From Naegleria lovaniensis (lineage: Eukaryota; Heterolobosea; Eutetramitea; Acrasida; Naegleriidae): 64,000 nucleotides of DNA. Position 1 is the first letter of the stretch, and every line of letters begins with the position of its first letter. Shown here one piece after another: positions 31,558 through 37,091 of this stretch. The stretch lies in NCBI RefSeq assembly GCF_003324165.1, contig NW_025407856.1, forward strand, positions 423,002 to 487,001, in the 5' to 3' direction. A program made the position numbers and the translations under genes. The notes below the pieces were generated by a model. That model was not told where the DNA came from and did no database searches. It saw only the letters and a list, made by a program, of their open reading frames with translations.

Positions 31558-32134
31558 CAATTTTCACAAGAACAAATTAACTGTACCTTCTCTTTATTAA
31601 AGCCAACCCGTGTAGCTTCATCTCAATTTCATTTGACAAAAACAAGGCGACTCAATTTGGACCTCAAAAGAGTGTGCCCTTCATTTTTATCTGGACTCTT
31701 GTCAAGTGCCAATTTAGCAGTCACTGAGCATAAGGGATGAACTGCGTCGATGGTCGAGTTCATTTGCGATCACTGCGATGTTAAAAGCGTCGCTCCTGTA
31801 CTGTAACACTTCGTGTATTCAAAACATTTCAATTCCATTAACACTTGATCACAATCCATGGGGAAAATAACCTTTGAGAACACCAGAAACCCATCAACGA
31901 TGCTCATAAAACCTTAACATGAGCTTCAAAGTTTTCACCCTCTCAATTAATGATTCGATGCCTTTGCTACTAACAAGTCTCTTTTCACAAATACAGATCC
32001 ACCCGTCACACATCACATCAAGTGACACGACCTGCACTTCACACGCAGCAAATAAAAACCCACTTGTTTCGCTGTCATCATCCGTAAAAAAATTCAACAA
32101 TAACACCAGTTATCATTTTATAATTCACACAACA
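31558..32134. other. intergenic 0.58 kb
   Basis: 3' flank of the RWP-RK-like gene and presumed promoter of the Lys/Arg-rich gene. Coding frame continues open upstream of 32135 to 31919, but that part has no coding character. Nothing else seen. Confidence 0.45.
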
Positions 32135-33643
32135 ATGATTTCCACCACTTCATCAAACTCCAAGTGGTTGGTGGCCTTGTTGTTGGTTGCCTTGTTCTCT
32201 GTGTGCACCTTTGCCATGGCTCAAGCAACCACTCAAACCGCCGCAACCGAAGCTGTAAAAGCAGTCCCAACCGTTAAACCAACTACGGTCGTGATCAAGA
32301 AAAAGCCTGTACTCGTGGCTAAACCAAAGAAGAGAAGAACCATTCGAAGACTCAAACGACGTGTTGCTAGAAAACTTAAAAGATGCCGTAAATTGGCAAA
32401 GAGAGCCAAGAAGTTGGCTGCTCGTGCTGCAAAGAAGGCTAAACTCGCTTCATTGAAGGCCAAAGTTGCTGCTGCTAAAAAGACCAAGAAGTCTCGCAAG
32501 GTTGCCAAGAGAGCTGCCAGAAAAGCAAGAAAGGTTGCCAAGAGAGCAAGACGTGCTGCTAAGAAGGCCCGTCGTTGTGCCAAGAGAGCTTCCCGTAAAT
32601 ACGGAAAGAAGGCAACTAGAAAGTTGAGAAGAAGAGCTAGAAAGGCTGCCAAGAGAGCAAAGAAGGCTGCTAGAAAGGCAAAGAAGGCCAAGAAGAGCAC
32701 AAAGAAGGCTAGAAAGGCAGTCAAGAGAGCAGTCAAGAAGGCTGTTAGAAAGGCTGTTGCTGCTGTTAAGAGAGCAAGAAAACTCCTTCCAAAGAGAAAG
32801 AGAGTTGTTGTTGTCAAGAAGAGAAGATCTTGCAGAAAACTCAGAATTGCTTTGAAGAGATTGAGAAGAGCATTGAAGAAGAGAAGAGCTGTCAGAAGAG
32901 CAAGAAAGATTGCTAGAAAGATCAGAAGACAAAAGAGAAGAGCTGCTAGAAAACTCAGAAGAGCTTTGAAGAGAGCTAGAAGAGCCTCCACCAAGAAGGC
33001 CAAGAGAGCTGCTAAGAGACTCGCAAGAAGACTCAGAAAGGCTCTCAGAAGACTTGCAAAGAAGGCCAAGAAGGCAATCAGAAGAGCAAAGAAGCAAGCT
33101 AAAAAGGCAAGAAAGGTTGCTAGAAAGGCCAAGAAGATTGCTAGAAGAGTTAAGAGACACAGAAGAACTTGCAGAAGAGCTAGAAAGCCAAGAAGAGTTG
33201 TCAGAAGAAAGATTAAGCGTGCTTTGAAGAAGAGAGCCAAGAGATGCAAGAGAGCAAGACGTGCTGCCAAGAAGGCTGCTAGAAGAGTCAGAAAGCTCGC
33301 CAAGAAGGTCAGAAGACACCTCAGAAGAGTTGCTGCCAGAAAGACCAAGAAGGGTAAGCGTGCTGCTAGAAGAGCTTTGAAGAGAGCAAGACGTGCATTG
33401 AAGAGAGCTAGAAAGGCTGCCAAGAAGGCTGCTAAGAGAGCAAGAAAGGCCTGCAGAAGATACAAGAGAAAGGTTAGAAGAGCAAGAAAGATCTGCAGAA
33501 AAATCTCCAAGGCTAAGCGTGCCAAGAGAGCAAGAAAGATCAGAAAGATTAGACGTGCTTTGAAGAAGTTGAGAAGAAACAAGAAGAAGAAGGCTATCAA
33601 AAGAAAGCTCGTCTTCAGATTGAAGAAGTTGTACAAGTGTTAA
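32135..33643 (+). CDS. secreted Lys/Arg/Ala-rich polycationic protein
   Basis: 502 aa from the ATG at 32135, chosen because it places a good signal peptide at the start (KWLVALLLVALFSVCTFAMA, then AQA as a likely cleavage site). An in-frame start at 31919 would bury it. From residue about 60 to the end the protein is nearly all Lys, Arg, Ala, Leu, Val and Ile; in one 40-residue piece I counted 23 Lys/Arg. I see no Asp or Glu after the first 40 residues. Eight Cys occur in settings such as KRCRKL and RRSCRKL. Patterns such as AKRAKKAARKAKKAKK predict long cationic helices. Similar composition occurs in H1-like DNA-condensing proteins and in antimicrobial polycations, but the signal peptide argues for the secretory route or a lysosome-like compartment. 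No family is recognised. Function unknown. Confidence 0.8.
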   Translation: MISTTSSNSKWLVALLLVALFSVCTFAMAQATTQTAATEAVKAVPTVKPTTVVIKKKPVLVAKPKKRRTIRRLKRRVARKLKRCRKLAKRAKKLAARAAKKAKLASLKAKVAAAKKTKKSRKVAKRAARKARKVAKRARRAAKKARRCAKRASRKYGKKATRKLRRRARKAAKRAKKAARKAKKAKKSTKKARKAVKRAVKKAVRKAVAAVKRARKLLPKRKRVVVVKKRRSCRKLRIALKRLRRALKKRRAVRRARKIARKIRRQKRRAARKLRRALKRARRASTKKAKRAAKRLARRLRKALRRLAKKAKKAIRRAKKQAKKARKVARKAKKIARRVKRHRRTCRRARKPRRVVRRKIKRALKKRAKRCKRARRAAKKAARRVRKLAKKVRRHLRRVAARKTKKGKRAARRALKRARRALKRARKAAKKAAKRARKACRRYKRKVRRARKICRKISKAKRAKRARKIRKIRRALKKLRRNKKKKAIKRKLVFRLKKLYKC

Positions 33644-33784: not shown

Positions 33785-36700
33785 TCAATTTTCTTCTTCA
33801 AAAACATCATCCTCCAATTGCTTCCATAAATCGTCATCTGCAAAGGTAATCTGAGAAGAAGAGGAGCTCTTTCTCTTCTTTTTCGTGGGTTCTTCTTGGT
33901 CTGCTTCCTGGGAGTTGTCAGTACCTCCACAACTGCCATCTCTCACTCGAACGTGACACACTTCAACATTGGCTCCAGCTTTGGCAAGCAAATCGATCCA
34001 AATAATTTGTTTCTCGCTAAGCTTGTCGTTAGGACCCTTAATTTCGCTCAGTAAATGTTCATGAGAGGCATTTGTTGTGTTGACATCACTCTTTTTCCAA
34101 CAAACGAGGTCTGGAAAACCACTTCTGTTCTCTTTCATGTCCTCAGCAAGAGATTGAAGTATGGTACATATCACCTTAATTGGAAAGCATTCACAAATAC
34201 TAATGAGGCATGTTAATTTTTGCGAAGGTTTTTCAGCAATGTCTATTGATTCAGAAGCTTGTGCTTCTTTTTGTGAAGTGACAGCTGTCTCTTGCTTGTT
34301 TTCAACAACATGATCCACATTCTCATCCAATACCTCGACAATTTCGTCATCATTTTCATGAGTCATGATCGTTGCATCTTCATCTGATAGCGTTGGATCC
34401 ATATCCTTCCAATTACAACTAATTGCATTCGTTCCATAATTTTCATTCCAACAATTTGTCACTTTTTCAATCAAATACGTAGAACCAAGTTGTTCAATTT
34501 CTTCAAGTCGTTTCTTGAACTTGTCTCTTCTTCTCAAATAGAATGCATCAGTCATGAAATCAAGAGGACAAGATTGATACTTGTTTTGAAACACATAGGG
34601 TATGGATGAATCGAAAATAATATCCCACATCACTAACATGAATAACATGGCCCAAATAGAACCTTCACTATGAATACCTTCCATGGCATGTTTCATTTGG
34701 TAATGTTCCAGAGCAAATTGTTCCACACTCACCACTATTGTGAAAATTATTTCAATAATTCATTTCAAATATAAAAATTTGCAATGTGTTGTCCATGAAA
34801 TGATAGATTTTTTGACCATCAATCATTCAATAATGGAATTGTTAGTGTTGTCCATCGCATACATCATCATCATCATTTAAAATGTAAAATACATGTAATT
34901 CATACTTGCCTGTTTCTTGATCCAAATGGGATATAAAGTGATTCCTCTTTTCTCCCTTTTTTCTACTTTCTAATTTCTTGACTTTTCCTTGAATGTATAT
35001 TAACTTGGGAGGTTTCACATTGGTTGAAATAAAAGTTGAGATGAGACTGGAATCGTCAAGAGTTGAATATTTCTTGGGATCTGATTTTTGAAGTTTCTTA
35101 CAAATTCTCAAATATCGTTTTTCAAGTGTACATCTCTTATTGGGAGGTAATCGAATGGATCCAAAAAATTCACAGCTGTTATTATCAGATAATGCAATTT
35201 TGCATGTTTCATATGCCTTTTCATAACAGTCCACAGTTTTTTGATGTTCATAATCGAGAGCAATACGATTGTAGAACTCTCCACGCTTACCTACCATAAA
35301 CGGAGATTTCAGAATGGCATTCAAGTGTGAAATTGCAAGTTCGTATTGCTTGTGTTTTTCTAATAGTTTCGTACAGTAATGCAATATTCGAGCGTAGACA
35401 TAGCCACATCTAAATCTCATGAGGTAATAATCCATATGTAGTGTGTTCGATGAAGAATCATTTGAATACTTCTTTCGAATTAATTCTGTGTCTTCTTCGA
35501 GTCTTTGACAAATATCTTTGGAAAATTCGACAAGTTTTTCCAATAGACCATCCTCATTGGCTTTCTGAATGGACTCTAAACGAGTTTCAATTTCGATAAT
35601 TAGAAGATCTTGAGTATTTTGAACGTCACCACTCGATGGGTTTGCGTACGAGCTTTTAGTGCTTTCTGTGGATGGAGAGTCGAGAGAGTCAGCCCATGTG
35701 TTTGCAATTTCAAACGCTTCTTCATATCGTAAGAGGTCTTCTCTTGTTTCGAATAGGCTCTTTTGTTCTTGGACTTCATATTTTGGAAAAATAGTAATTT
35801 TCTTTTGTTCCAATATCATGATGGAGGCATTATCAGAGTTTTGTGATATAAAATAGAGATGGTGAATTCGTTTGAAAATTTTAGAAACATTCTTGTGGAT
35901 CCTATAATACACGGGAGCAATATCCTTATTAGTACTTGAGGCTTTGTGGATTAATTTTAGTACATCTTGTGTACGTAAAAGTGTGGAGCTATTGGGTGAG
36001 GAGTTTGAAGATGATGTCATATTCTTCTCCTTGTCTTCGTCTTTACACTTGTCGTTCGCTGTAACTGTCTGTTTTTTGAAAAATCCACTCAGTTTTGATT
36101 GTTTTCCACTGCCTCCAGAATCTTTCAAATCAACAAGAGATTCAGGTCGTGTGATAATTTGTTTGATTAGATCAGATTTTGGAGACTCTTTGGATGATCT
36201 CTTTGAGAGTTGCTTCTTCACTACATTGCTTATATTTTTCTTGTCCAGTATGGATTTGAGTTGCTTGTTAGTGAACTCTCTCAATAATTCTTGAATTTCA
36301 TCCATGGTCCAGTTATTAGAAAAGTTCTTACTGGAAGAGCTGCTTTCATTGTTGTTTTCCTTGTTTACATGAAGGCACTCAAAAAGTTCAGATTTTACGA
36401 GATGTTCGAGAGCATCTTTGATGTTCTCGCAGCACACAATTTGCATATTGGCTTCGTCACTATTCACCCACGAGGACATGATATCTTCCTTTTCTTTTTC
36501 AATTTCTCTACGGTATTTTTCTAGCTCAGTGATTGTGAAATATTTTTGTTTTCTATTAAACAAACGAATAAATAATCGTTGTGACGCTTTGCATTGATTT
36601 TTAAAGGCCTCAATAATTTTCTGCTCTTCCTCAATAAATAAATGTCCATCTCTTTTCGTGACTGTTTCTAAAATCTCCAAGAAATGGTACAAATAATAGC

Positions 36701-37091
36701 TTCTTACTCGATCCTCTTCAAGTTGTTCTTGTTGTTGTGAAAATTGTTGTGAATTGGATTGTTGAGATTCAACTCCACTTCGATCGGAATATAAAGATTG
36801 AGAGTTTTCCTCCAAGTCGACAGAGTCCAACGATTGCCTCGTCTCCATCATGGATGACAACTGGCTATTGACCGAGATGCTTGATGCCATTTCTTCGTCT
36901 ATCGTTTCCATACTGAGACTACTCATACTGCTCGTAGATAATCGATGAGAGCGTTTATCGGAATAAGTACTTTTGGCATTCAATAGCTCATCATCACTGT
37001 CAATAATCAGTGCCTCTTCCAAAGAGTTTCCTTTCACCTTTTTAAACTCCTCTTCTTCCAAACTATCAGTGTACAAGCTTGGAGGCTTCAT
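33785..37091 (-). CDS. FAN1: FAN1 structure-specific nuclease
   Basis: Fanconi-associated nuclease 1, which cleaves 5' flaps and unhooks interstrand crosslinks. The main exon (37091 to about 34906) has a disordered start, an SAP-like helical domain (about 260-320, LREFTNKQLKSILDKKNISN) and TPR-like helices (about 560-690, KQYELAISHLNAILKSPFMV). The second exon (about 34727-33785) has VEQFALEHY, EGIHSEGS, MWDIIF, YVFQNKYQSCPLD and the VRR-NUC core GFPDLVCWK...LSEIKGPNDKLS...VEVCHV; the metal-binding Glu, Asp and ExK are present. A GTATGA donor and a GGTGAG acceptor keep frame (178-nt intron, 1042 aa), but the 3' site is uncertain. Coding-like sequence continues in frame above 37091, so the true N-terminus is missing. 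No UBZ finger is seen. Confidence 0.93.

Follow-up and report, generated by a model that had tools for sequence, protein, structure and literature searches.

The window analysed here is a stretch of 64,000 nucleotides (64 kb) of Naegleria lovaniensis DNA, within which all coordinates below are counted unless a contig is named. At 32135..33643 on its forward strand lies a single open reading frame (ORF) of 502 codons encoding a polycation that has a signal peptide-like N-terminus and a codon usage resembling that of actin and EF1A, and its layout, a signal peptide-like segment followed by a long, nearly acid-free Lys/Arg-rich helix, is that of a family of such proteins in the same genome. The frame runs from an ATG at 32135 to a stop at 33641-33643 and its translation contains no in-frame stop, which confirms the protein of about 500 residues proposed by an earlier, sequence-only reading of this DNA. 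An alternative ATG lies upstream in the same frame, at 31919, and would give a protein of 574 residues; the ATG at 32135 is preferred because the hydrophobic stretch is then N-terminal, as in the paralogue on contig C12 (C-numbers denote contigs of the N. lovaniensis genome).

Composition, helical order and codon usage

Residues 1-29 (32135..32221, + strand) form the signal peptide-like segment, in which K10, the hydrophobic run LVALLLVALFSV and a cleavage-like site between AMA and Q can be made out by eye. The best N-terminal 12-mer has a hydropathy of 3.10, against at most 0.69 for 12-mers from residue 61 onward, and the signal peptide described in the sequence-only reading is upheld to this extent. 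A Thr/Val/Pro-rich linker of 37 residues follows (residues 30-66; 32222..32332, +), containing E39, the only acidic residue among all 502 (K 129, R 123, A 104). The rest of the chain, residues 67-502 (32333..33640, +), is the polycation; its 436 residues include 123 Arg, 120 Lys, 94 Ala, 29 Leu, 23 Val, 12 Ile and eight Cys, with two Pro and no acids. Lys and Arg account for 243 of the 436 (56%), in line with the share of more than half given previously, and the earlier count of eight Cys is right for the mature part. With Ala the proportion rises to 77%, which makes the description 'almost only Lys, Arg and Ala' slightly strong, and the run free of Asp and Glu is real and longer than the roughly 440 residues reported, covering residues 40-502 (463 residues). 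The mature chain (residues 30-502) has a mass of 55.8 kDa and a net charge of +250. Among 21 other window ORFs that served as a comparison set, the Lys/Arg fraction does not exceed 0.16 and the longest acid-free run is 194 residues.

The sequence of the polycation is ordered, not random. Lys and Arg in residues 67-502 recur with a strongest period of 3.6 residues (z = 28.6 relative to 200 shuffled versions), and the same period is found in the C12 paralogue (z 21.8). Across its 419 18-mers the mean helical moment is 0.64, compared with 0.30 in 50 shuffles, the mean charge is +10 and the mean hydrophobicity is -0.83 (range -1.48 to -0.06); the pattern is that of an amphipathic cationic helix. 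AlphaFold2, given a three-row alignment, placed helices at residues 66-156, 159-216, 220-283, 287-348, 354-400, 405-481 and 486-501, with a mean predicted local distance difference test (pLDDT) score of 71 and a predicted template modelling (pTM) score of 0.30 for the protein, so that the polycation is modelled as helices strung together with no definite overall fold. A role for the Cys residues on the hydrophobic face is suggested at most, because six of the eight in the mature protein lie within 90 degrees of it and three within 60 degrees.

A codon index was trained with one actin and part of one EF1A, the 21 other window ORFs serving as the contrast, and gave 0.247 for the window gene; actin scored 0.371 and EF1A 0.407, values that are inflated because these few controls are themselves the training set. 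The other 21 ORFs all fall below the window gene, at -0.619 to -0.21 singly and -0.476 jointly, and by this large gap the gene looks, and probably is, highly expressed. Relatives of the gene, described below, scored 0.231 (C61), 0.176 (the C52 fragment), 0.075 (C13), 0.048 (C12) and -0.133 (C56, whole protein). In silico, trypsin cuts the mature chain into 248 pieces, three of which have seven or more residues (QATTQTAATEAVK, AVPTVKPTTVVIK and KPVLVAKPK), and trypsin digestion would nearly hide the protein.

The neighbours of the gene are ordinary. Upstream is an RWP-RK-like ORF (24.6 bits, below the cut-off of 29.3), and downstream, on the opposite strand, are pieces of a FAN1 nuclease; at 33785-37091 (-) the FAN1 match extends over two ORFs, with helix-turn-helix and TPR regions in one and VRR-NUC in the next, which probably represent a single gene with an intron. 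An 11-mer spotted by eye, AGTGACACGAC (32021..32031, +), is a weak candidate for a regulatory site; the C61 paralogue has it too, likewise upstream and on the same strand (C61:62863-62873). The 11-mer is not clearly enriched, because its pattern has 15 sites genome-wide against 11 for a control pattern, and no exact 9-mer recurs in as many as three of the five upstream stretches compared.

Relatives in Naegleria

Besides the window gene, at least seven loci in the N. lovaniensis genome carry a long Lys/Arg-rich tail, a count that is a lower bound since the genome search scored the best candidates only. They comprise three further standalone polycations, each beginning with a signal peptide-like segment and two of them near-identical, one fragment, and three loci in which von Willebrand factor type D (VWD) domains are joined to a polycation. 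The standalone proteins are encoded at C12:16316-17704 (463 residues), on C74 (463 residues, differing from C12 by two) and on C61 (414 residues from the first ATG), where the signal peptide is probably completed by a short upstream exon. The fragment, on C52, has 476 residues and lost its N-terminus at the contig end. In the C56 protein (1082 residues, identical to C9374_012176 of N. lovaniensis) and its near copy on C66 (1084 residues), a signal peptide-like segment is followed by two VWD domains and the tail, whereas the C13 protein has a signal peptide-like segment, one VWD domain and the tail; VWD lies above the Pfam cut-off in all three, with two stretches over the threshold in each of C56 and C66. 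A strong N-terminal hydrophobic core is present in the window protein and in seven others scored (C61 via the presumed splice; one of the seven, P0005, is not counted as a family member). No near copy of the window protein is among the genome matches listed.

Several candidates were dropped: L002 and L017, which are the same loci read out of frame or antisense with many stops; C54 (E 0.64); C24 (E 0.10) and C6 (E 3.8), which have no basic ORF in the stretch fetched; C28 and C59, which are basic and have no long acid-free tail; and C19, where part of the C-terminal block described below precedes a Cys-rich stretch. The contig C28 carries a large ORF without a Pfam match (L035:2224-5505, -), with an internal Arg-rich amphipathic repeat, IRRVARRVGGA, and a layout reminiscent of lipid-transfer proteins. 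Further VWD matches, short and with one stop, lie on C18 and C46, and another belongs to a locus on C40 (L059:3009-8459, -) encoding about 1800 residues that match G8, CEMIP beta-helix, temptin and EGF, with a mucin-like C8 match below cut-off, an animal-like set of extracellular domains in an amoeba.

The C12/C74 and C56/C66 loci lie in duplicated, nearly identical regions that extend over several kb (97-99% across the main pieces) and are possibly alternative haplotypes. The C12 and C74 genes differ by 10 synonymous and two non-synonymous changes (expected synonymous fraction 0.239, P = 2.5e-5), and C56 and C66 by 20 synonymous and 11 other changes (P = 1.9e-6; 10 and 8 in the tail alone, P = 0.004), where the latter two P values use the synonymous fraction computed for C12 and the binomial treats changes as independent. 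These counts argue for purifying selection on both pairs; the result concerns the paralogues and not the window gene.

The VWD form with its tail is kept in Naegleria fowleri (FDP41_006112, 1055 residues) and in a predicted protein of Naegleria gruberi (P0003, 926 residues). Between N. lovaniensis and N. fowleri, 303 of 400 aligned tail positions and 458 of 531 in the VWD part are identical; for N. gruberi the figures are 146 of 354, with a further 53 Lys/Arg exchanges, and 290 of 509. In the order N. lovaniensis, N. fowleri, N. gruberi, the basic fraction of the tail is 0.49, 0.49 and 0.47, and acids number 1/402, 1/415 and 9/371 residues. The conserved ORF length that the sequence-only reading would require among relatives is thus found in part, in paralogues of 463 and at least 414 residues and in a VWD form of 1082, 1055 and 926 residues in three species. 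For the window protein itself no orthologue turned up in a set of 5.8 billion proteins, the other Naegleria genomes not having been searched directly.

Kinship between the tails was judged against 30 pattern-keeping shuffles (for the window protein, 2000 such shuffles and 1000 that were rotated in addition, or 100). The tails of C61, C52, C56, N. fowleri and N. gruberi match each other well above the shuffles, for instance C61 with C56 (524 vs 442±14), C61 with N. gruberi (540 vs 416±15) and C52 with C56 (582 vs 463±14), and on these scores common descent links the standalone C61 protein with the VWD form. The C12 tail matches more weakly, both C61 (450, shuffles 424±17) and C56 (361, 337±17). 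The window and C12 tails align collinearly up to the terminal LxKLxKC and its last Cys, with a score of 554 that 8 of the 2000 shuffles and none of the 1000 rotated sequences reached, so that shared ancestry of these two is probable and kinship of the window protein with the VWD forms, by way of C12 and C61, plausible. TEAVK occurs in the linkers of both, and the likeness of the linkers is not significant (10% of 2000 shuffles were equally good).

Several family members also share a C-terminal block of about 80 residues with the layout helix, NP turn, helix, KC ... KC. AlphaFold2 placed helices at residues 2-23, 26-29, 32-45 and 68-78 of the C61 block (pLDDT 74, pTM 0.55). A search from this block recovered C52 (E 7.4e-8), C12/C74 (3.4e-4, mid-chain) and C56/C66 (9.6e-4), and a block profile gave C12 21.3 bits while 400 shuffles of the window and C12 sequences yielded no report. 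The block had no match in a fold search, one match in the PDB by sequence (E 0.053), and none as a short peptide pattern in bacterial and archaeal genomes and viral contigs. The C-terminal 17-mer of the window protein, KAIKRKLVFRLKKLYKC (33590..33640, +), resembles the end of the block; compared with eight family ends it ranks top of the 420 windows of the protein, and fourth if the last column is ignored.

Block-like sequences were also noticed near the N-termini of two further proteins, both read by eye and alignment. One, encoded near 271.4 kb of C12 (L055:1569-3599, -), is a secreted VWD-type protein whose block (E only 0.55) is followed by long Pro-Arg repeats (RVPRTPR-like). The other, near base 850 of C37, at the far end of the window's own contig (L060:406-3108, -), and absent from the eight block-search matches, has a signal peptide-like start, the block-like N-terminus, 11 antistasin repeats and Pro-Arg repeats; its VWD match reached 22.8 bits in the genome search (23.1 with neighbours, cut-off 22.9) and is not listed on the protein scan. 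The profile is no independent test of these two blocks because both went into it.

Database and literature comparisons

Neither the window protein nor the C12 protein found a match in the set of 5.8 billion proteins (C61 was not searched there), which does contain a VWD relative from the same genome. The HMMER bias filter was rejected as the cause, as a local self match at the same database size gave E 2.7e-228, and the two proteins are probably absent from the set, unless the candidate step lost them. Against Pfam the window protein has no match at E up to 1, hence no VWD (PF00094) and no globular H1 domain, and C12 has four weak matches under the cut-offs; short peptide patterns from the window protein had no match in bacterial and archaeal genomes and viral contigs. 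By sequence, 18 PDB sequences matched at E up to 1, the best being pRLB-519 (8gl3, E 4.4e-7). Most, not all 18, are named as designed, that is artificial, and the designed helical proteins 4uos and 5cwp have the same helix pattern of charged and Ala/Leu positions; these matches are taken to reflect composition and pattern, not descent.

A term search in the main texts of six papers (PMC9928731, PMC11589745, PMC8296547, PMC11964265, PMC7696429 and PMC11493829) turned up no mention of a Lys-rich secreted or VWD-polycation protein, and two of them mention von Willebrand type A domains. Among the literature matches listed, titles and opening lines of abstracts pointed to no work on such a protein, and the locus tags of four VWD relatives do not occur in the paper texts searched.

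Possible roles of the polycation

The sequence-only reading is partly supported, in that the polycation does begin with a signal peptide-like segment and has relatives of the same layout; the helical period, the gene family, the VWD link and the codon bias are additional to it. The hydrophobic starts and VWD domains of the relatives make secretory routing likely and nuclear use unlikely. The explanation towards which we lean, tentatively, is an abundant secreted, charge-driven matrix protein of a Naegleria polycation family that would bind polyanions, either extracellularly or within granules. Inside the secretory pathway, a chain carrying +250 would stay extended through self-repulsion until it met a polyanion, for which an acidic wall or surface glycan, polyphosphate and DNA are candidates. 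Neutralisation of its charge would then allow folding into long helices with the basic face on the polyanion, while the Ala/Leu/Val stripe could pack helix against helix and the Cys residues could supply cross-links. The outcome would be a protein that cross-links or condenses a matrix outside the cell or in granules, such as a cyst wall, surface coat or mucus, and the VWD relatives alongside could supply covalent assembly. C9374_012176, FDP41_006112 and P0003 resemble the window protein in their signal peptide-like start, Lys/Arg-rich, acid-poor tail and basic ...KC or ...RC end, but differ in having two VWD repeats (by eye in the latter two) and the C-terminal block. Silaffins and other wall polycations resemble the proposed matrix protein in being secreted, rich in Lys and part of a wall or matrix; they are Ser-rich and heavily modified, with short repeats, whereas the window protein has few Ser and long helices.

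A number of results weigh against this matrix reading. The block profile does not match the window protein, in which only the last 17 residues look alike, and the C13 tail lacks the block. The window-C61 score was reached by 57 of the 2000 pattern-keeping shuffles and 3 of the 1000 rotated ones, and none of the window tail's scores with the C52, C56, N. fowleri, N. gruberi and C13 tails leaves the range of 100 pattern-keeping shuffles; the case for its kinship therefore comes mostly from C12 and from layout. With five of the other six tails, the C13 tail scores no higher than reversed sequences do (C56, N. fowleri and N. gruberi 303-321, reversed 303-320; C61 305, reversed 311; C52 277, reversed 285) and scores 206 with C12, below the reversed 228, so that it may have arisen apart. 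Tail positions gain or lose charge at 36 of 400 sites in N. fowleri and 59 of 354 in N. gruberi, which together with the stable basic fractions indicates that overall charge is kept and individual sites drift. The term search in the main texts of the six papers turned up no link to cysts or to any other stage.

The main rival, which we consider unlikely, is a phagosomal or secreted antibacterial, a polymer of cationic amphipathic helices that would bind lipopolysaccharide (LPS), teichoic acid or DNA from bacteria the amoeba has taken up, or that lysosomal proteases would cleave into numerous short cationic helices. Naegleria is a bacterivore, and cationic amphipathic helices throughout the polycation, the abundance suggested by codon bias and the signal peptide-like start would all suit such a role. 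Cathelicidins and similar antimicrobial peptides likewise have a signal peptide and a basic amphipathic helix. Those peptides, however, have tens of residues and are much more hydrophobic, whereas the polycation has about 440 residues and a charge of +250; at a mean hydrophobicity of -0.83 and +10 per 18 residues it is far more polar than membrane-lytic peptides, which would speak against lysis and not against LPS or DNA binding. Its Cys are scattered without a defensin-like array, and the VWD relatives point to a matrix. Less probable again is a condenser of polyphosphate or nucleic acid in an acidic or storage organelle that the secretory pathway supplies: the charge of +250 suits either ligand and the signal peptide-like start would admit the protein to that pathway, but no organelle signal was recognised by eye and the VWD relatives look extracellular.

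Very improbable, in our estimate, is a reserve of nitrogen and basic amino acids laid down for dormancy, its helicity being incidental, which would account for the nitrogen-rich composition and for the high yield suggested by codon bias, and would have no need of the period-3.6 spacing, the Cys or the fused VWD domains. Lower still we place a nuclear, histone H1-like or mitochondrial DNA-packing protein whose N-terminal stretch is not a signal peptide. Linker histone H1 tails and kinetoplast-associated proteins are Lys/Ala/Arg-rich polycations in the same way; yet they are nuclear or mitochondrial and contain Pro, whereas the window protein has a signal peptide-like start, about as much Arg as Lys, the 3.6 period, eight Cys, few Pro and no Pfam family, and the hydrophobic cores and VWD relatives tell the same way. 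The least probable reading is that the ORF is no gene at all but low-complexity DNA open by chance, for which one might cite its lack of a match among 5.8 billion proteins and two antisense frames open from stop to stop (407 codons, Ser/Leu-rich, and 468, Leu/Phe-rich). The antisense frames are likely a by-product of codon choice, and the codon bias, signal peptide-like start, helical spacing and purifying selection in the C12/C74 paralogues speak for a gene.

Returning to the matrix protein, a bolder form of the idea is more doubtful than the simple one: a matrix of genetically encoded, all-helical polycations, the window one at about +250 and some VWD-fused, forming a protein-polyanion condensate made near actin levels, which may also have been overlooked by trypsin proteomics and perhaps through low-complexity masking in gene prediction. 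We know of no counterpart of such a material. The protein would also point to a blind spot, as there are few usable tryptic peptides and the standalone window and C12 proteins did not turn up in a huge protein set that holds their VWD relative. If the protein is secreted and abundant, an amoeba genus would pass a protein of about +250 through the endoplasmic reticulum and use it outside the cell or in granules, and it would become possible to test what holds together or protects the surface or cyst of Naegleria.
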